DNA from: Rhizobacter sp. SG703
Lineage (GTDB): Bacteria > Pseudomonadota > Gammaproteobacteria > Burkholderiales > Burkholderiaceae_C
Assembly (NCBI RefSeq): GCF_012275445.1
Contig: NZ_JAAZQK010000008.1
Span: 62,001 to 126,000 of the forward strand
Direction: 5' to 3'
Length of the DNA stretch: 64,000 nt
Made by a program: the position numbers and the translations under genes. The notes beneath the pieces are model-generated. The model was not told where the DNA came from and did not search any database. It saw only the letters and a program-made list of their open reading frames with translations. Positions 19,087 to 27,844 of this stretch are shown piece by piece; position 1 is the first letter of the stretch, and the number at the start of each line of letters is the position of its first letter.

Positions 19087-19887
19087 ATGTCGCTGATCGA
19101 TGAAGCCCTGCGTGCCGGCCACGCCCCCGTGCCGCGCAGTCCCACCGCATTGCAACGCGTGCTGGTCGCCGGTGGCGGCGGCCCGCTCGGCTCGGCCTTG
19201 CTCGAAAGCCTGCTGTCGGTGCGGGCCTTCGCGCCGGTCAGCGTGCTCGTCACGCAGCCGACGCGCGCCGCGTTGCATGGCCTGCACGCGCTGCTGTGGC
19301 CTGCCGGCGCCGCGCTGCCGCCGGGCGACGAGCGGGTCGGCGTGATCGTGTTCGACCGCGAGCGCCATGCCAACGGCCGCGAACTGGCGTTCTACCGGCC
19401 CGAACCGGCCGATCTGCCGGCCATCGCGGCGCAATGGCAGGCGCGCGGCGTGCGCCACCTGCTGGTGGTGATGCCGCACACGACGGCGAGCCTGCCCGAT
19501 GCGCTGAAGCGCGGGCTGGCCAACCTCGACGAGCACGCTGTCGCGGCGCTCGGCTTCGAGCACCTGGTTTTCGTGCGCACCGCCCAGGCGGGCGCGCACG
19601 AACGCGTCAGCCACCCGGCGCAGCGCCTGGCGCACTGGATGCTGTCGCAGCTGCAGATGATGGTGCCGCAGCGAGACCGCCCGGTGCGTGCGCAGAAGGT
19701 CGCGCAGTTCGCCGCGCAGCTGGCGGCGCGGCTTGCGCACAGCCCGCCCGGCACGCGCGTGGTGCCGCCGGAGACGGTGTGGGAGGCCGCGCAGGTCGAC
19801 GACATCGCCAGCCTCGCGCAGCGCTGGCTCAACGGGCCAGCGCCAGTGCCAGCGCCTGCTGGATCGGAGCCGCCGGCGCAGCCGTAG
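19087..19887 (+). CDS. Rossmann-fold NAD(P)-binding-like protein of unknown function
   Basis: About 266 residues. The N-terminus has a dinucleotide-binding glycine-rich loop, RVLVAGGGGPLGSALLESLL, and a following strand SVLVTQP, as in atypical short-chain dehydrogenases or NAD-dependent epimerases. Later parts (HLLVVMPHTTASLPDALKRGL and HLVFVRTAQAG) fit further strands, but no YxxxK catalytic motif is visible, so enzymatic activity is doubtful. The ATG at 19087 is chosen; an earlier in-frame ATG at 19027 would add 20 residues of low quality. Its 3' end overlaps the convergent transglycosylase gene by 59 bases. Confidence 0.6.
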   Translation: MSLIDEALRAGHAPVPRSPTALQRVLVAGGGGPLGSALLESLLSVRAFAPVSVLVTQPTRAALHGLHALLWPAGAALPPGDERVGVIVFDRERHANGRELAFYRPEPADLPAIAAQWQARGVRHLLVVMPHTTASLPDALKRGLANLDEHAVAALGFEHLVFVRTAQAGAHERVSHPAQRLAHWMLSQLQMMVPQRDRPVRAQKVAQFAAQLAARLAHSPPGTRVVPPETVWEAAQVDDIASLAQRWLNGPAPVPAPAGSEPPAQP

Positions 19888-21148
19888 CGTCCTCCGGGGA
19901 CACGCTCCCGGCGCCGCCACCGCGCGCCGGCGGCTTCGGCGTGCGCGGCAGCGGCCGCATCTGCGACAGCACCCAGCGCACGCGCGCTGCATTGACCTCG
20001 CCGCGCGCATCGAAGCGCGCCAATTCCAGGTCGGGGTTGTGCAGCAGGCTGGCCAGCCACGCCGCTTCGGCCGGTGTCAGCTGGTCGACGCGCTTGTGCA
20101 GCAGCTGCGCTGCGGCTGCATGCGCGCCGCAGCGCCCCTGGCCCCACGGGACCAGCGACAGGTAGAGGTGCATCACGCGCGCCTTGCCGAGCGTGCGGTC
20201 CAGTTCGACGGCGTACAGCAGCTCGCGCAGCTTGCGCGCATGGCCGCGCGCGCCGCCGGTGTAGACCAGCCGCGCGAGCTGCTGCGACAGCGTGCTCGCG
20301 CCGCGTTGCGGCTCGAACGACAGCGCGTGGCCGATCTCGTCGAGGTCGTAGCCGGTGTGCTCGTGGAAGCGCTGGTCCTCGGCGGCGATCACCGCGCGCG
20401 GCAGCCAGGTGCCGAAGCCGCCGGCCGGCACCGCGCCCTCCGCGGTGCATTGCGGCGCGGCGTTCAGCAGCGCCTCGGTGCCCAGCCCGGCGACGCGAAA
20501 ACCGTCGAGCCGCGGCCGGAATTCCAGCGTGCGCTCCGGCAGGCGCAGCCGCAGGTCGAAGCGCATCAGCCCGTCGACCTGCGCGCGCGGCAGCTCGGGA
20601 ATGGTCGATGCGAACAGCGCGAACGCATCGGCGATCGGCGTCACGTCGCCTTGCACGTTCAGCTCGAGCTGCTGTGGCGTCAGCGCCGCGCGCCAGCGGC
20701 CACGCACCGCATGCGCCGGCTCGCCGAGCGCGAAGTCGCCTTGCAGGTTCATGTCGGCATCGCGCGCCAGCGTGAACACCAGGCGCGTCAGCCGCACCGC
20801 ATCGCCGGGCAGCCCGATGCCGCGCAGCGCGCAGGGGGCGCAGGTCATCCGCCAGCCATCGGGTCCGTCAGGCTCCACCGCGACACGCCCGAACGGCGTG
20901 CGCAGCGTGCGGCCTTCGAGTACGCGCAGCGTCACCGGGTGCGTCGCGAGCCGGATCACCGTCGGCACGCTGATCGCGCGCTGCCACGGGCCGAGGTGCA
21001 GCGTCTGCGCCCATTCGCCGTCGACCGGCCGCAGCAGGCGCAGCATCGCCCAGCCGCCGATCAGCAGCGCGGTCACGAGGCCGGCCAGCAGGCCGGCGAT
21101 CCACAGCGCCGCTCTCGCGCGCCAACCTCTGTCGTGCCAAGGTCTCAC
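19829..21148 (-). CDS. GT51 peptidoglycan transglycosylase with beta-rich N-terminal domain
   Basis: This 439-residue protein has one membrane anchor at about 14-34, then some 200 residues of beta-rich, AsmA-like sequence, then a GT51 glycosyltransferase domain from about 245 to 390. The catalytic motif AVIAAEDQRFHEHTGYDLD holds Glu257, and the second motif is GASTLSQQLARLVYTGG. There is no transpeptidase domain. It should polymerise glycan strands from lipid II on the periplasmic side of the membrane. The GTG start overlaps the stop of the EpsI-like gene (GTGA), so it is translated with the exosortase operon. This links the exosortase system to cell-wall synthesis. The N-terminal extension is unusual compared with monofunctional MtgA of about 240 residues. 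Confidence 0.82.
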   Translation of the reverse strand: MRPWHDRGWRARAALWIAGLLAGLVTALLIGGWAMLRLLRPVDGEWAQTLHLGPWQRAISVPTVIRLATHPVTLRVLEGRTLRTPFGRVAVEPDGPDGWRMTCAPCALRGIGLPGDAVRLTRLVFTLARDADMNLQGDFALGEPAHAVRGRWRAALTPQQLELNVQGDVTPIADAFALFASTIPELPRAQVDGLMRFDLRLRLPERTLEFRPRLDGFRVAGLGTEALLNAAPQCTAEGAVPAGGFGTWLPRAVIAAEDQRFHEHTGYDLDEIGHALSFEPQRGASTLSQQLARLVYTGGARGHARKLRELLYAVELDRTLGKARVMHLYLSLVPWGQGRCGAHAAAAQLLHKRVDQLTPAEAAWLASLLHNPDLELARFDARGEVNAARVRWVLSQMRPLPRTPKPPARGGGAGSVSPEDATAAPAAPIQQALALALAR

Positions 21149-21687
21149 AGTGCCCTCGCTGTCGTGATGGCCTGCCACGGCCCCGTGCTCTGCCCGAGCT
21201 GCGCGGCCCAGAACCAGCTCGATGCGTCGGTGAACGCCGCGCCATCGGCTCCGACGATCCGCTCGCAGACGCGGGTGCGCTGGCCGTTGCGCTCGGCGAC
21301 GAAGCAGCGCCACAGCCGCTGCGCGTCGTCGCGCTCCAGCCGCGCTTGCTCGATGCGGTAGCCGAGCCCGCGGTAGCAATCGGCTGCCGGGTGCAGCATG
21401 CGGGTCGGCGTGCGCACCTCGCGCATCACGAGCACCTGCGCGCCATCGGTCAGCCGCGCGATGCGACCCGGGAACTGCGCGGCAAAGCGCTGTTCGACGG
21501 CACTCAGCGCGAGCGGGCGAAGCGGGCGGCCTTCCCATTCGATCGGCCATTCGAACGCTGCGTCGGCCGCCGTGGCGGCAGTGCCGTTGTGCGGCGCACC
21601 GAGCACCGGCAGCAGCGCGCAGGCGAGCAGCAGTGCCGCGAAGCCCAGCTTGTGTCGCAGCCCGTCGCGGTCATTGCGGCGCAGCAT
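21145..21687 (-). CDS. EpsI-like exosortase-associated protein
   Basis: This 180-residue protein has one N-terminal membrane helix (LGFAALLLACALLPVLGA) and a periplasmic domain. The motif LHPAADCYRGLGYRI resembles the HPPExCxxGxGY motif of EpsI/DUF3485 proteins, which accompany or are fused to exosortases. Two further cysteines follow (LWRCF, VCERI), and the C-terminal SSWFWAA stretch also fits. The ATG at 21687 is preceded by GGAGGGGCGTG; a GTG one codon earlier is possible. It overlaps the exosortase 3' end by 17 bases and the transglycosylase start by four, so all three are co-translated. The biochemical role of EpsI is unknown; it is presumed to assist exosortase processing or transfer. 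Confidence 0.68.
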   Translation of the reverse strand: MLRRNDRDGLRHKLGFAALLLACALLPVLGAPHNGTAATAADAAFEWPIEWEGRPLRPLALSAVEQRFAAQFPGRIARLTDGAQVLVMREVRTPTRMLHPAADCYRGLGYRIEQARLERDDAQRLWRCFVAERNGQRTRVCERIVGADGAAFTDASSWFWAAQLGQSTGPWQAITTARAL

Positions 21688-22510
21688 CACGCCCCTCCCG
21701 CATCAGCATCGTCACAGCGGCACACACCATCGCCAGCACCGCGAGCCCGATGCCCTGGTGCCAGGCGTCGGCCAGCGGTCCGCGCGACTCCAGCGCCACC
21801 AGCACGGTGTTGCGCAGCACGTTGCCACCCAGCACCAGCGCGCCCACCAGCGGCAGCCGCCGAATGAAGCTGCGCTCGCGCAGCCCGCCGAGAAGCGCCA
21901 TCGCACAGGCGCAGAAATACGCCATCCACACCATCTGCACGCCGGAGCACGGCGCATCGACGATCACCAGCTGACCGTCCACCACCATCGCGGTGCCGCT
22001 GCGCTCGGCGGCCCGGCCGGCCAGCTGAAGCAGCCAGGTGCTGCATTGCGCGGTCACCAGCCGCAGCGGAAAGCCGGCATAGAACTGCAGCGACGACACG
22101 GCCGGCAACGACAACACCGCGAGCCCTGCGAGCGGCAGCGTGGCCTGCCCCGATGGCGCGATGGCGCGCCAGCCGCAGGCCAGCGCCAGCGCGGCGAGCA
22201 GTGCACCGGCCAGCGGCGGCGCGAAGGCCTGCGACGCGGTGGCGAGCAGCGTCAGCGCGCCGGCCGCGACCCACCAGCCCGGCCGCGCGCTGCCGCGCAG
22301 CCCCGGCGCCTGCCACACGACCCAGCCGAGCAGCACCGCCGCCGCGGCCAGCCCGAGCGGATCGTCCGAGCCATCGGCCAGCCGCCCAGCCGCCCAGCGC
22401 CAGTGCGGCCACAGCGCCACCGCCTGCAGCCCGAGCCAGGCGAGCGGCGGCATCGCTTCGAAGCGCCCCAGCCAGCGGCCGATGGCGCAGGTGGACAACA
22501 CGGTTCCCAT
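21671..22510 (-). CDS. Exosortase with complete Cys/Arg/His triad
   Basis: This 279-residue polytopic inner-membrane transpeptidase has about eight hydrophobic segments. The three catalytic positions of the exosortase/archaeosortase family are all present in order: Cys188 in VDAPCSGVQM, Arg233 in GGNVLRNTVLV, and His251 in DAWHQGIGL. It should cleave the PEP-CTERM tail of a secreted protein and attach the product to a surface carrier. The gene starts 18 bases after the VIT/VWA gene, whose product ends in a PEP-CTERM tail, so that protein is the obvious substrate. GAGG lies seven bases upstream of the ATG. The exosortase subfamily cannot be named with certainty from sequence by eye. Confidence 0.88.
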   Translation of the reverse strand: MGTVLSTCAIGRWLGRFEAMPPLAWLGLQAVALWPHWRWAAGRLADGSDDPLGLAAAAVLLGWVVWQAPGLRGSARPGWWVAAGALTLLATASQAFAPPLAGALLAALALACGWRAIAPSGQATLPLAGLAVLSLPAVSSLQFYAGFPLRLVTAQCSTWLLQLAGRAAERSGTAMVVDGQLVIVDAPCSGVQMVWMAYFCACAMALLGGLRERSFIRRLPLVGALVLGGNVLRNTVLVALESRGPLADAWHQGIGLAVLAMVCAAVTMLMREGRDAAPQ

Positions 22511-22528
22511 CGGTGAGCCTCATGCCTT

Positions 22529-24610
22529 TCATGCGACCACGGCGGTGCGGCGGCGCTGCAGCGCGACGCCGGCCACGCCGACCACCACCAGCAGCGCCAG
22601 CCAGGCCGCCGGCTCCGGCGTGCTGGGCACCTCGGCGCCGAGCGCGGTCTCGGCCACGCCCTGCGGCAGCGGCAGCGGCTGGTCGACGGTCGGCGCCAGC
22701 GCCGGGTTCGGGTTGCGCACCACTTCGTCGATCGCGATGAAGCTGGTGTAGGGCGTCAGCAGGCTGTACTTCAGGCCCAGTGCGGTGATGGCTTCCTTCT
22801 CGGCGTTGCCGCCGACCAGCGACTCCTGGTCGCCGAGCGCCGCGATGCGCTGGCGGGCCCACAGGTGGCGCAACGCGGACGAGGTCTGGTCTTCGTGGCC
22901 GGCCACCAGCAGTTCCTGGTGCCACGGGCCATCGGCCGCGCGGCCGTCGAGCACCAGCCGGCCGCCGGCCGGCACGCCCGGCTGCGAGCGCCACTTGCCC
23001 TGCAGCACCACCGGGCGGCCGCCCAGCACGTCGGGCAGCGCGGCCGGCTCGACGTCGTACACGTCCAGCCCGTCGAAGCGCGCCTTCAGCTGCGTCAGCA
23101 CCGGCGAGTCGATCATGCGGCGCAGCCGCTCGGCCTGCGCGGCGGCCTCGGCCGGCCTGGTGACGACGAAGGCCTCGCCCTGGCCGGCCCGTGCCAGTCC
23201 TTCGATCAGCGCGCGGTTCACGCTGCTGCCGATGCCGAACGCGAACACGTTGAAGTCGTTCAGGTGCCGGCGCACCAGCTGGAAGACCTCGGACTCGACC
23301 GTCACGTAGCCGTCGGTCACGACGATCACGCTGCGCGACAGGTCGGCGGGCTTCGGCAGCTCGGCCACGCGGCGCAGCGCCGGCACGATCTCGGTGCCGC
23401 CGCCACCGCTGGTCTGCGTCAGCGCCTGCACCGCGCGTTCGATGTTGGCGCGGGTGGCCGGCACCGAGGTCGGCGACAGCATGCGGCTGCTGCCGGAGAA
23501 CAGCATCACGTTGAAGGTGTCGCTCGGGCGCAGGCCGCCGATCAGGTTCTGCATCAGCACCTTCGCGGTGTCCAGCGGGTAGCCGTGCATCGAGCCGGAG
23601 ATGTCGACCACGAAGATGTAGTCGCGCGGGCTGACCTGCTGCAGCGGCACGGCCTTCGGCGGTTCGACCATCGCGAGGAAGAAGTTCTCGCCGCCGGTCA
23701 GGTCGTCGCCGCGGTACAGCATCAGCCCGGACGCGATGCGGTCGCCGGCGAGGCGGTAGTTCAGGATGAAGTCGCGGTTGTTCGAGGCCTGGGTCGCATC
23801 CGCCAGCGTGACGACGGCGTGCGCGGTGTCGGCGCCCTGCACGCGGATCTCGTGCGACGACGAGCTGACATCCTTCACCGCGATCGGCGCGTCGACCCGC
23901 AGCTTCAGGGCGAACGCGGTGGTCGAGTCGACGCCGGCCCGCAGGTAGGGCGCGGCGGCCCACACCGGCCGGCCGGTGGCGTCGGCCGCGGACGGGCTGC
24001 CGTAGCGCGGCCCGACGACGGTCGGGAACACGAAGCCGTACTGCGCGTCGGTCGGCACCAGCAGCTCGGTGTAGCGCAGCTCCACCGCGACGTCGTCGCC
24101 CGGCAGGATGTTGGCGACGTTCATCTCGAACACGTTCGGCCGGTGCTGCTCCAGCAGCGCGCTGGTCCTGCCCTCGCGCTTCGCGTTGTCGTACTCGATG
24201 CGCGCCTGCTGCTTCTCGCGGATGCGGGCGGTCAGCAGCCGGTTGCCCAGCCGCACGTTCATCGCGTAGATCGCGGCCTGCGTCGAGCCGGGGAACACGT
24301 AGCGGGCCTCGATCGGCCGCTGGCCTTCGTTGCGGTAATGCTGCGTGACGGTCACGTCGGCGATCACGCCGCTGATGCGCACGTCGACCGCGGTCGACTT
24401 CAGCGGCAGCCGATCGGTGCCGGGGTCGCCGTTGTCGATGAAGAAGTACGGGCTCTCGCCCTTGCGGGCTTCGGCGTCGTCGGCGCGGGCCGGCGACCAC
24501 GCGAGCGTGAGGACGGCCGCGAACAACGACAGCGCGATGCACAGCATCACGCGGCCGACGTTGGTGAGGGGGCGAAGCGGGTGGAACGGAACGCGGCGCA
24601 GCGGGGGCAT
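22529..24610 (-). CDS. VIT and VWA domain surface protein with PEP-CTERM tail
   Basis: This 693-residue secreted protein has a signal peptide with hydrophobic core at 20-38 ending near SPARA at 43, a VIT domain at about 55-190, a von Willebrand A domain at about 328-500 with the MIDAS motif DISGS at 336-340, and a further beta-rich region. The last 31 residues are a PEP-CTERM sorting tail: STPEPA at 663, a hydrophobic helix, then LQRRR. VIT/VWA proteins of this layout are the targets in proteobacterial dedicated sortase systems. Here the tail and the neighbouring gene indicate exosortase processing. A GGAGAAAACC ribosome site precedes the ATG. A CreB-type site lies about 92 bases upstream of the start, so CreBC probably activates it. 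Confidence 0.9.
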   Translation of the reverse strand: MPPLRRVPFHPLRPLTNVGRVMLCIALSLFAAVLTLAWSPARADDAEARKGESPYFFIDNGDPGTDRLPLKSTAVDVRISGVIADVTVTQHYRNEGQRPIEARYVFPGSTQAAIYAMNVRLGNRLLTARIREKQQARIEYDNAKREGRTSALLEQHRPNVFEMNVANILPGDDVAVELRYTELLVPTDAQYGFVFPTVVGPRYGSPSAADATGRPVWAAAPYLRAGVDSTTAFALKLRVDAPIAVKDVSSSSHEIRVQGADTAHAVVTLADATQASNNRDFILNYRLAGDRIASGLMLYRGDDLTGGENFFLAMVEPPKAVPLQQVSPRDYIFVVDISGSMHGYPLDTAKVLMQNLIGGLRPSDTFNVMLFSGSSRMLSPTSVPATRANIERAVQALTQTSGGGGTEIVPALRRVAELPKPADLSRSVIVVTDGYVTVESEVFQLVRRHLNDFNVFAFGIGSSVNRALIEGLARAGQGEAFVVTRPAEAAAQAERLRRMIDSPVLTQLKARFDGLDVYDVEPAALPDVLGGRPVVLQGKWRSQPGVPAGGRLVLDGRAADGPWHQELLVAGHEDQTSSALRHLWARQRIAALGDQESLVGGNAEKEAITALGLKYSLLTPYTSFIAIDEVVRNPNPALAPTVDQPLPLPQGVAETALGAEVPSTPEPAAWLALLVVVGVAGVALQRRRTAVVA

Positions 24611-24701
24611 GGTTTTCTCCTGGGCGCGCCGCTCGGTGGGCGCGTGGCCGCAAGAATCGACCGGGCCTGCGAAGCGAATTCGAAGGCGGATGCGCCGCTG
24701 T

Positions 24702-24717
24702 GTGAAGTGCGCGTGAA
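24702..24717 (-). promoter_or_regulatory. CreB binding site (cre tag)
   Basis: Read on the minus strand the sequence is TTCAC-GCGCAC-TTCAC, an exact match to the published CreB/BlrA recognition consensus TTCAC-N6-TTCAC. It is a direct repeat with an 11-base period, as expected for an OmpR-family dimer. It lies in the 159-base gap between creC and the VIT/VWA gene, upstream of the latter on the coding strand. This gives the VIT/VWA-exosortase genes their own CreB-controlled promoter. The -35/-10 boxes downstream of it are not clear. Confidence 0.75.
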
Positions 24718-24769
24718 GGTCGCCGGGATGCCCGGTGACGTGTACGACGATGCCGGATCGGCGTCCGGG

Positions 24770-26200
24770 CTACGGGTTCAGCGGCAGCGACAGCGTGGCG
24801 AGGGCACCGCCCGCCGCGGCGTTCTTCAGCGTGATGCGCCCTTCGTGCAGCTCGGCGATCTCGCTGACGAACGACAGCCCGAGGCCGGTGCTCTTCTTGC
24901 GCGAATGCGGTCGCGCGAGCGAATAGAACTTCTCGAACACCTTCGATTCGGCGTAGTCGGGGATGCCCGGGCCGCTGTCCTGCACCCGCAGGTCGACGGT
25001 GCGGCGGTGCAGCTGCAGCGAGATCCGCACCGTGCCGCCCTCGGGCGAGAAATCGAGCGCGTTGTCGAGCAGGTTCGACAGCGCGCGCTGCAGCAGGAAG
25101 GCATCGCCGTCGACGCTCGCGTCGGGCCCGTCGTCGACCACGATGCGCAGCTTGCGGGCCGCCGCGGCCGCCTGCGCGCTCGCGGCGATCTCGTGGACCA
25201 GCGGCCGCAGCGCGACCGGCGCCCGCCGCTCCAGGCTGCGGCGCGATTCCAGCGCGGTCAGCTCCATCATCCGGTCGACCAGCTCCTGGATGCGGTGCGT
25301 CTCGCGCGCGATGTTGGCGACGAAGCGCGCCCGGTCGGCGTCGGGCATCGGCTCCTGCAGCAGCTCGGCCGCGCCGCGGATCGCCGACAGCGGGCTCTTG
25401 ACCTCGTGCGTCAGCGTCTGCACGTAGTCGGCCACATAGTTGCGGCCGGCCAGCGCATCGCGCATCTCGTCGTAGGCTGCGCCGATCGCGCCGAGCGCGC
25501 GCCGGCCGAGCCGCGGCAGGCTGAAGCTGCGCTGCGAGCGCACATAGCGCACGTAGTCGGCGATCAGCCCGAACGGCCGCACCAGCCACACCGAGACGAT
25601 CACCACCAGCAGCAGCACCGCGACCACCGAGGTCACGCCGACCAGCAGCGTCTTGCGCCGCGCCGCATCGACGAACTGCCCGAAGCTCTGCACCGGCTTG
25701 CCGACGCTGACCGCGCCGATGATCTCGTTGCGCGCGCGCACCGGCGCGGCCACGTACATCACCGCGGTGCGGTTGTCGTTGTCGATGTCGGGCGTGGTGC
25801 GCGCGCCGTACTCGCCCTGCAGCGCGCGCCAGACGTCGTGCCACTGCGCATAGTCCTCGCCGAGGTGGCGCTGCGTCGAGTCGTAGACCACCTTGCCGGC
25901 GCGGTCGGTGACGATCAGCCGCAGCTCGACCCGCGTCTTCTCGAAGCCGAAGATGTCGGCCTTGAAGCGCCGCGCATACAGCGACTCGAACACCGGCGCG
26001 AGCGTCTGCGCGCGCAGCGTGCCGTCGGTCGACGAGGCCTCGAGCGTCGCGGCGATCAGGTGCGCGGTCTCGACCAGCGACTCCTCGGCCGACTCGCGGT
26101 AGCGCGGGTCGATGTCGCCGAGCAGCCGGTACATCAGCACGCCGACGCCGAACGCGTAGGCGAGCAGGATGCCGACGAAGATCCGCGTGCGCTTCGAGAT
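24770..26200 (-). CDS. creC: CreC-like sensor histidine kinase, start codon probably ATC
   Basis: About 476 residues from the proposed start. It has an N-terminal membrane helix (RIFVGILLAYAFGVGVLMY), a periplasmic sensor region with the CreC-type IDPRYRESAEESLVETAHLIA, a second membrane helix near TSVVAVLLLVVIVSVWLV, a HAMP-like linker, the H-box QTLTHEVKSPLSAIRGAAE, N-box LSNLLDNALDFSPEG, and G-boxes DSGPGI and STGLGLSFVSEI. CreC responds to metabolic and cell-wall stress in other bacteria. The first canonical start in frame is a GTG at 26140, which would cut the first membrane helix in half. The family start falls at an ATC codon one base after the creB stop, with GGAGAG just upstream. The frame contains no ATG, GTG or TTG between those points. 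Confidence 0.85.
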   Translation of the reverse strand: MSKRTRIFVGILLAYAFGVGVLMYRLLGDIDPRYRESAEESLVETAHLIAATLEASSTDGTLRAQTLAPVFESLYARRFKADIFGFEKTRVELRLIVTDRAGKVVYDSTQRHLGEDYAQWHDVWRALQGEYGARTTPDIDNDNRTAVMYVAAPVRARNEIIGAVSVGKPVQSFGQFVDAARRKTLLVGVTSVVAVLLLVVIVSVWLVRPFGLIADYVRYVRSQRSFSLPRLGRRALGAIGAAYDEMRDALAGRNYVADYVQTLTHEVKSPLSAIRGAAELLQEPMPDADRARFVANIARETHRIQELVDRMMELTALESRRSLERRAPVALRPLVHEIAASAQAAAAARKLRIVVDDGPDASVDGDAFLLQRALSNLLDNALDFSPEGGTVRISLQLHRRTVDLRVQDSGPGIPDYAESKVFEKFYSLARPHSRKKSTGLGLSFVSEIAELHEGRITLKNAAAGGALATLSLPLNP

Positions 26201-26201
26201 G

Positions 26202-26927
26202 TCAGCTCTCCGGCTTGCCGGCCGGCAGGTCTTCGGCCAGCGCGTAGCCGGTGCCGCGGTGCGTCTTGATCGGCTCCAGCGTCGGTGCGACCAGCTTCAT
26301 CTTCGCGCGCAGCGTCTTCACGTGCGCGTCGACGGTGCGGTCCAGGCTTTCGGTGGCGTCGTCCCACACGCGCTCGAGCAGCGTGTCGCGCGAGAACACA
26401 TGGCCCGGCCGCGACACCAGCGTCTTCAGCAGCCCGTATTCGTAGCGCGACAGCTCCAGCAGCTGGCCGTAGAAGCGGATCTGCCGGCGGCCGTCGTCGA
26501 CCGCGATCGGCAGCGGCGATCCGGCCGCGGCCGCCGGCGCGGCGGCCGGCTTCGTCGCGCGGCGCAGCACCGTGCGCACGCGCGCCACCAGCTCGCGCGG
26601 CGAGAACGGCTTCGCGACATAGTCGTCCGCGCCGAGCTCCAGCCCGACCACGCGGTCGATCTCGTCGCTGCGCGCGGTCAGGAACACCACCGGCACGTCG
26701 GCCAGCGCGCGAATGCGCTTGAACACCTCGAAGCCGTTGGTGTCGGGCAGGCCGACGTCGAGGATCACCAATGCCGGCCGGTCTTCCGGCGCGCTCGCCT
26801 GCACCTGCGCCACCGCCTCTTCACCGGTCGCGACCCAGGCCGGCTCGAAGCCATCGGTGCGCAGCGCGTACTGCAGCGTGTCGGCGATGCCGGGCTCGTC
26901 TTCGACGATCAGGATGCGCGGTTTCAT
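26202..26927 (-). CDS. creB: CreB-like response regulator
   Basis: This 241-residue OmpR-family regulator has a receiver domain ([18 protein letters not shown] in outline) with phospho-acceptor Asp in [12 protein letters not shown] and Lys in VAKPFSPRE. An Ala/Pro linker follows, then a winged-helix domain with [33 protein letters not shown] and the C-terminal RGTGYAL hairpin. The partner kinase lies directly downstream and is CreC-like. The ATG overlaps the cysK stop (ATGA). The cre tag near 24702 matches the known CreB site, which supports the assignment. Expected role: activation of the VIT/VWA-exosortase genes and possibly other sites. Confidence 0.88.
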
Positions 26928-27844
26928 TCGGTCGGCAGGAAGCCTTCGATCGACAGGTAGCGCTCGCCGGTGTCGTAGTTGAAGCCGAGCACCGTCGCGC
27001 CGGCCGCCAGCTCGGGCAGCTTCTGCGCGATCGCGGCCAGCGTGGCCCCCGACGAGATGCCGACCAGCAGGCCTTCTTCGCGCGCGGCGCGCCGCGCCAT
27101 CTCCTTCGCGGCATCGGGATCGACCTGGATCACGCCGTCGAGCAGGTCGACGTGCAGGTTCTTCGGGATGAAGCCGGCACCGATGCCCTGGATCGGGTGC
27201 GGACCGGGCTTGCCGCCGCTGATGACCGGCGACAGCGTCGGTTCGACCGCGAACACCTTCAGCTTCGGCCAGCGCGCCTTCAGCACCTTCGCGCAGCCGG
27301 TGATGTGGCCGCCGGTGCCGACGCCGGTGACCAGCGCATCGATGCCGCTCGGGAAATCGGCGGCGATCTCTTCGGCGGTGGTGCGCACGTGGATGTCGAT
27401 GTTGGCCGGGTTGTCGAACTGCTGCGGCATCCAGGCGCCGGGCGTTTCGGCCACCAGCTCGTTGGCGCGCGCGATAGAGCCGTTCATGCCCTTCTCGCGC
27501 GGCGTCAGCACGAAGGTCGCGCCGTAGGCCAGCATCAGCCGGCGGCGCTCGACGCTCATGCTCTCGGGCATCACCAGCACCAGCTTGTAGCCCTTCACCG
27601 CGGCGACCATCGCAAGGCCGACGCCGGTGTTGCCCGAGGTCGGCTCGACGATCGTGCTGCCGGGCTTCAGCATGCCGCTCGCCTCGGCCGCCTCGACCAT
27701 CGCGAGCGCGATGCGGTCCTTGATGGAGCCGCCGGGGTTCGAGCGCTCGCTCTTCACATAGACCTGGTGCGTGCCGCCGAACAGGCGGTTGATGCGGATG
27801 TGCGGCGTGTTGCCGATGGTCTGCAGAACGTTCGATGCGAGCAT
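26924..27844 (-). CDS. cysK: Cysteine synthase A (O-acetylserine sulfhydrylase)
   Basis: This 306-residue PLP enzyme makes cysteine from O-acetylserine and sulfide. The PLP lysine lies in [12 protein letters not shown], the substrate loop is [12 protein letters not shown], and the PLP phosphate loop is [10 protein letters not shown]. Length and motifs are those of CysK. GGAGG lies five bases before the ATG. It is divergent from hemE, with only 45 bases between starts. Its stop codon overlaps the creB start by four bases, which places the CreBC pair on the cysK transcript, an unexpected coupling of sulfur assimilation to a stress regulator. Confidence 0.93.

Follow-up and report, generated by a model that had tools for sequence, protein, structure and literature searches.

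Which protein does an exosortase serve when its gene adjoins that of a single protein with a sorting tail, and what switches the pair on? A 64,000-nucleotide stretch of Rhizobacter sp. SG703 (contig NZ_JAAZQK010000008.1, positions 62,001 to 126,000; hereafter, the window) raises both questions. It contains a minus-strand run of six genes that encode the response regulator CreB, the sensor kinase CreC, a VIT/VWA protein with a PEP-CTERM tail, an exosortase, an EpsI-like partner and a GT51 glycosyltransferase (Table 1). An earlier account made from the letters of the window (the sequence-only reading) described the run as a CreBC-controlled, dedicated exosortase system linked to peptidoglycan synthesis. 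Profile matches place all of its parts at 19829–26927, as that account had drawn them, and assign the exosortase, with its Cys188, Arg233 and His251, to the curated family exosortase Q (XrtQ). Judged by comparative sequence analysis, the locus is likely to be a CreB-regulated, probably single-substrate exosortase module.

The gene order recurs in relatives. A contig scan returned 201 exosortase relatives, of which the best 80 were kept; this best-scoring set is rich in Variovorax, and the closest XrtQ relatives within it are from Rhizobacter (92% identical). Gene presence in the fetched loci was scored by tblastn, which found a VWA match in 79 of the 80 related loci. All 79 also have EpsI, 70 have GT51 and at least 62 have creC upstream on the same strand, with contig ends accounting for some of the misses; creD adjoins the VWA gene divergently in 38. 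Genomes were also sampled from the family (n = 399), order (n = 300) and class (n = 345) of the window, each sample including the window’s own genome, and XrtQ exceeded its cut-off in 61, 4 and 2 of these, respectively. The class match from outside the order (G998) carries creB, creC, the CreB box, VWA, XrtQ and EpsI on one strand; no GT51 match was found beside this otherwise complete run. VWA (≥260 bits) and XrtQ co-occur in the family genomes except in G316 (XrtQ with a truncated VWA gene), G411 (XrtQ split over two contig pieces) and G625 (a contig end). Two XrtQ genomes have second VIT/VWA copies (L163 and L165) in which the PEP-CTERM tail is replaced by an OmpA-like domain, recognized by eye, or by a transmembrane helix, pairing one type of body with different anchors.

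Control of the operon by CreB is well supported by sequence, because a CreB box is conserved in front of it and because XrtQ co-occurs with CreC. The cre/blr tag, given as TTCAC-N6-TTCAC in passages of PMC4689548 and PMC3660660, has a single exact copy in the window, against an expectation of 0.05, and the VWA start follows 107 bases later. In 74 of 80 loci (the window and 79 others), VWA has an exact box within the preceding 400 bases; one further copy in total occurs elsewhere in these loci. The box also precedes the target gene in 10 of a further sample of 12 genomes. The window’s genome contains eight exact boxes and no instance of the reversed-pattern control. On inspection, four of the eight precede a gene: the exosortase operon, creD (NF008712, 442.7 bits, cut-off 275; away from the locus), a run of DUF2138, alpha-2-macroglobulin and DUF2300 genes, and a secretin-like gene. 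CreC, scored as present at E ≤ 1e-100, was detected in 160 of the 399 family genomes, comprising 60 of the 61 with XrtQ versus 100 of the 338 without it (Fisher p = 2e-26, with related genomes counted as independent); the sole XrtQ genome without CreC (G398) is 76% complete. The proposal that CreB governs this operon, made in the sequence-only reading, is supported by these comparisons. The DUF2138–alpha-2-macroglobulin–DUF2300 run (L170:7055-15616; G000:C5), with its exact box just upstream, suggests a protease-trap operon within the CreB regulon. CreB-box-like repeats were also seen before the secretin-looking gene (L133, G000:C3:156010; by eye), which a protein kinase gene adjoins.

The link to peptidoglycan synthesis is only partial, because GT51 is usual yet missing from some complete loci. 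In favour of this part of the earlier account are the 70 loci with GT51 and, in the window, the likely GTG start of the gene, which overlaps the EpsI-like stop codon (21148). Set against it are the nine of 79 loci without GT51 (some cut by contig ends), as well as G998 and G279. The same absences suit a different role, in which CreB control and the one-substrate pairing hold, the VIT/VWA protein serves in adhesion or aggregation rather than in cell-wall repair, and GT51 is a hitch-hiker; VIT/VWA is, moreover, an adhesion-type fold. However, the frequency of GT51, its overlapping start and the boxes before creD and the alpha-2-macroglobulin operon in the same genome tell against it, and we consider the adhesin role credible, with clearly less than an even chance of being correct.

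Dedication of XrtQ to the VIT/VWA protein is well supported by few PEP-CTERM matches in genomes without a second exosortase, by a distinct tail motif and by a scan of one genome (G521). XrtQ or a close relative is present in the 52 genomes compared. A second exosortase exceeds its cut-off in 25 of them, in which PEP-CTERM matches (counted at E ≤ 0.02) range from 1 to 35 (median of 8). In the other 27, in which the exosortase search found no second enzyme, matches range from 0 to 2 (median of 0; 18 zeros, 8 ones and 1 two); in G392, the second match belongs to a different protein, whose tail reads AVPEPAS. VWA tails carry a T ahead of PE in 77 of 79 cases; the 13 other tails inspected from the window’s genome, 12 of them scoring over the cut-off, all have V or I there.

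Several observations weigh against such dedication. The window’s genome encodes a second exosortase, XrtB (398.9 bits, cut-off 275), and 13 PEP-CTERM stretches over the cut-off, 12 besides the VWA tail. PF07589 gave no match in 18 of the 27 genomes; it thus failed on the very VWA tail and could likewise overlook other TPEP tails. The exosortase search was empty in 7 of the 27 despite XrtQ and could equally have passed over a divergent second exosortase. Because of these two weaknesses, tails were scanned directly in G521, in which XrtQ is the only exosortase found, using a detector of frames that end in PE followed by P, A or Q, a hydrophobic stretch and a basic residue; it recovers 78 of 79 VWA tails. 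The scan, which covered 2.0 of 3.9 megabases and hence half of one genome, returned 9 frames versus 15 in a reversed-sequence control. Only the VWA protein looks by eye like a bearer of a sorting tail, and no other frame is of the TPE type (one such frame in the control).

An enzyme that is not dedicated, either because the VWA protein is a shared substrate of XrtB (or, elsewhere, XrtA) or because XrtQ also serves the general PEP-CTERM set, would fit the XrtB gene and 13 stretches in the window’s genome and the other exosortases in 25 of the 52 genomes. It is nevertheless improbable given the 27 genomes with 0–2 matches, the differing tail motifs (TPE versus V/I-PEP) and the G521 scan, and comparison across genomes points to XrtB as the enzyme to which the other PEP-CTERM proteins of the window’s genome belong. 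The description of the VWA protein as the only visible substrate therefore holds for the neighbourhood and not for the genome. A second exosortase with many PEP-CTERM proteins, which the sequence-only reading took as telling against itself, is literally present in the window’s genome; the low count that it expected is seen in the 27 genomes, against a median of 8 in the other 25. Elsewhere, a 611-residue open frame contains two PEP-CTERM stretches about 850 bases apart (L144 and L150; G000:C9:96788-97714).

For a dedicated XrtQ under CreB control, the box evidence also has its exceptions. An exact box is missing in 6 of the 80 loci: L036 and L069 lie at contig edges, L093 has a truncated VWA gene, L028 and L034 have a 9-of-10 match near −100, and the best box-like match in L054 (Panacagrimonas) reaches only 8 of 10. 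In the 12-genome sample, no exact box was found before the target gene in G480 and G279. Genome-wide counts against the reversed pattern are 7 versus 6 in G480 and 2 versus 2 in G182, and the two are equally common in G279. As box number does not always exceed the control, the argument rests on box position, the conservation of which was counted among related genomes. That the box serves creD or another gene, leaving the exosortase operon a passenger without CreB control, is very improbable: creD, the classical box-bearing target in passages of PMC4689548, does share the gap as a divergent gene in 38 of 79 loci, but the creD of the window’s genome lies elsewhere with its own box upstream, the box persists in 35 of the 41 loci without divergent creD (8 of the 11 that lack both creC and creD in the vicinity among them), and the box also precedes a VIT gene in two distant genomes.

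The VWA tail has the PEP-CTERM layout of a PEP motif (VPSTPEP), a hydrophobic stretch and a basic end (RRR), and is weak by standard models (PF07589, 23.3 bits in a stretch scan versus 17.1 in a whole-protein scan, cut-off 20.7; TIGR02595, 13.3 bits, under 16). By eye, the N terminus of the protein is signal-peptide-like and its DxSxS motif resembles a metal-ion-dependent adhesion site. An alignment of five exosortase sequences shows no variation at Cys188, Arg233 or His251, and the enzyme would be expected to have proteolytic or transpeptidase activity. The EpsI-like protein gave no family in a Pfam search at E ≤ 1 and a single NCBIfam match, to the XrtT model and under its cut-off of 250; a structure model (predicted local distance difference test score of 90.5) suggests a periplasmic domain behind a single N-terminal helix. 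A single reading frame in G279 (L005) fuses XrtQ with the EpsI-like protein. The GT51 protein contains the catalytic motif region. Its gene could also be drawn from a start at 21550; the GTG at 21148 is most likely and is preferred. The creC gene begins right at the creB stop, apparently with ATC (26198–26200, minus strand), a start that we infer from comparing this position across relatives: the letters are identical in Rhizobacter L024 and L025, and more distant relatives have ATG, GTG or TTG instead. Upstream, a cysteine synthase gene (TIGR01139, over cut-off; 26924–27844, minus strand) overlaps creB by ATGA; a cysteine synthase match precedes creB in 6 of 80 loci.

Table 1 Features of the exosortase locus (positions within the window)
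Feature	Position	Strand	Evidence and remarks
creB, response regulator	26202..26927	minus	NF008296 318.6 bits, cut-off 273; start codon (ATG) overlapping the stop of the cysteine synthase gene upstream
creC, sensor histidine kinase	24770..26200	minus	NF008312 595.8 bits, cut-off 356; apparent ATC start codon
Predicted CreB binding site, cre-tag TTCACGCGCACTTCAC	24702..24717	minus	VWA gene downstream; consensus from PMC4689548 and PMC3660660
VIT/VWA protein, predicted XrtQ substrate	22529..24610	minus	PF08487 (VIT) 116 bits; VWA_3 81 bits
Sorting tail VPSTPEP, hydrophobic stretch, RRR	22532..22630	minus	PF07589; T before PE
Exosortase Q (XrtQ)	21671..22510	minus	NF012182 370 bits, cut-off 270; Cys188/Arg233/His251
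EpsI-like exosortase partner	21145..21690	minus	C-terminal part of XrtT model 44.3 bits; structure model
Monofunctional GT51 peptidoglycan glycosyltransferase, N-terminal helix and beta-rich domain	19829..21148	minus	PF00912 120.8 bits, cut-off 27

Known systems share parts of this arrangement. The proteobacterial dedicated sortase system (TIGR03785, TIGR03787 and TIGR03788) likewise combines a two-component system, a VIT/VWA target and one adjoining sorting enzyme, and the VWA body here is homologous to its target. However, its enzyme is a class GN sortase (TIGR03784) rather than an exosortase, and its target has an LPXTG tail, whereas the present operon has a PEP-CTERM tail and a CreB box. 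The analogy drawn in the sequence-only reading is thus fair in architecture, but the kinase (TIGR03785, 117.6 bits, cut-off 612.2), regulator (TIGR03787, 134.1 bits, cut-off 335.7) and target (TIGR03788, 413.6 bits, cut-off 551.65) fall well below the curated cut-offs of that system. The XrtN system of Bacteroidetes (TIGR04476/TIGR04477) also pairs an exosortase with a VIT-domain target, but XrtQ scores 48 bits against the XrtN cut-off of 200 and the target here is a VIT/VWA protein. With the PEP-CTERM/EpsH systems (XrtA and XrtB), the locus shares the exosortase fold family, the catalytic residues, an EpsI-like partner and a PEP-CTERM tail; those systems have many V/I-PEP substrates, whereas here there is one substrate with a TPEP motif and no adjoining exopolysaccharide cluster. 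The CreBC/BlrAB–CreD regulon is matched by CreB and CreC over their cut-offs, creD in the genome and the same box. Its outputs named in passages of PMC4689548, PMC3660660 and PMC2654508 are creD and beta-lactamases, and an exosortase operon was not found among CreBC outputs in the literature searched. Our searches also found no paper that joins an exosortase to CreBC or names exosortase Q, although NCBI’s notes on NF012182 may already record the VWA pairing.

These parts suggest a sequence of events. CreC would sense an envelope disturbance and phosphorylate CreB, which would bind the box and turn on VWA, xrtQ, epsI and GT51 and, in the window’s genome, also creD and the alpha-2-macroglobulin operon. 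In Pseudomonas, CreBC becomes active when PBP4 is lost or inhibited, and cefoxitin acts as an inducer of creD, according to passages of PMC2654508. The VIT/VWA protein would be exported by Sec and held by its C-terminal helix until XrtQ and its EpsI-like partner cut it at the TPEP motif, after which it would be released or transferred to its final, possibly anchored, place at the cell surface. Where present, GT51 would make new glycan strands in the same response, supporting repair.

Related arrangements occur farther afield. G032 and G077 each encode an XrtN-type VIT protein that bears a PEP-CTERM tail, adjoined by EpsI and an XrtQ-like exosortase scoring about 129 bits, below the cut-off; an exact CreB box is just upstream of this group, and CreC is encoded elsewhere in both genomes. 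In G988 and G847 (L210 and L211; other Gammaproteobacteria), a trio of XrtQ-like, EpsI and XrtN-type VIT genes points away from the genes of a CreB-like/CreC-like pair, which scores below the CreBC cut-offs, in a divergent arrangement; an exact CreB box was not found at the trio. The TIGR04477-like targets score 105–118 bits (cut-off 250), both at the two loci where CreB boxes occur and at the two where the neighbours are CreBC-like. From these arrangements, the link between CreBC-type regulators and VIT–exosortase pairs may predate the operon in the window. A broader and more doubtful possibility, offered tentatively, is that CreBC-type envelope-stress systems recurrently own a VIT surface protein and a sole-use sorting enzyme, with XrtQ, XrtQ-like enzymes with XrtN-type targets and, by analogy, class GN sortase as interchangeable tail-processing parts. 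Stress would then time processing alongside new glycan strands, and the processed protein may report back to CreC.

The exosortase Q family was already curated (NF012182), and the CreB box evidence for its operon is an addition to the earlier account. With creD described in a passage of PMC2654508 as lacking a known function, an operon that combines a conserved CreB box, a defined enzyme and a single substrate would provide a concrete, assayable output of CreBC in Burkholderiales. The uncharacterized exosortase Q family gains a likely control switch and a likely substrate, and a one-substrate exosortase with its own motif would be a simple system for asking what exosortases do to their targets.

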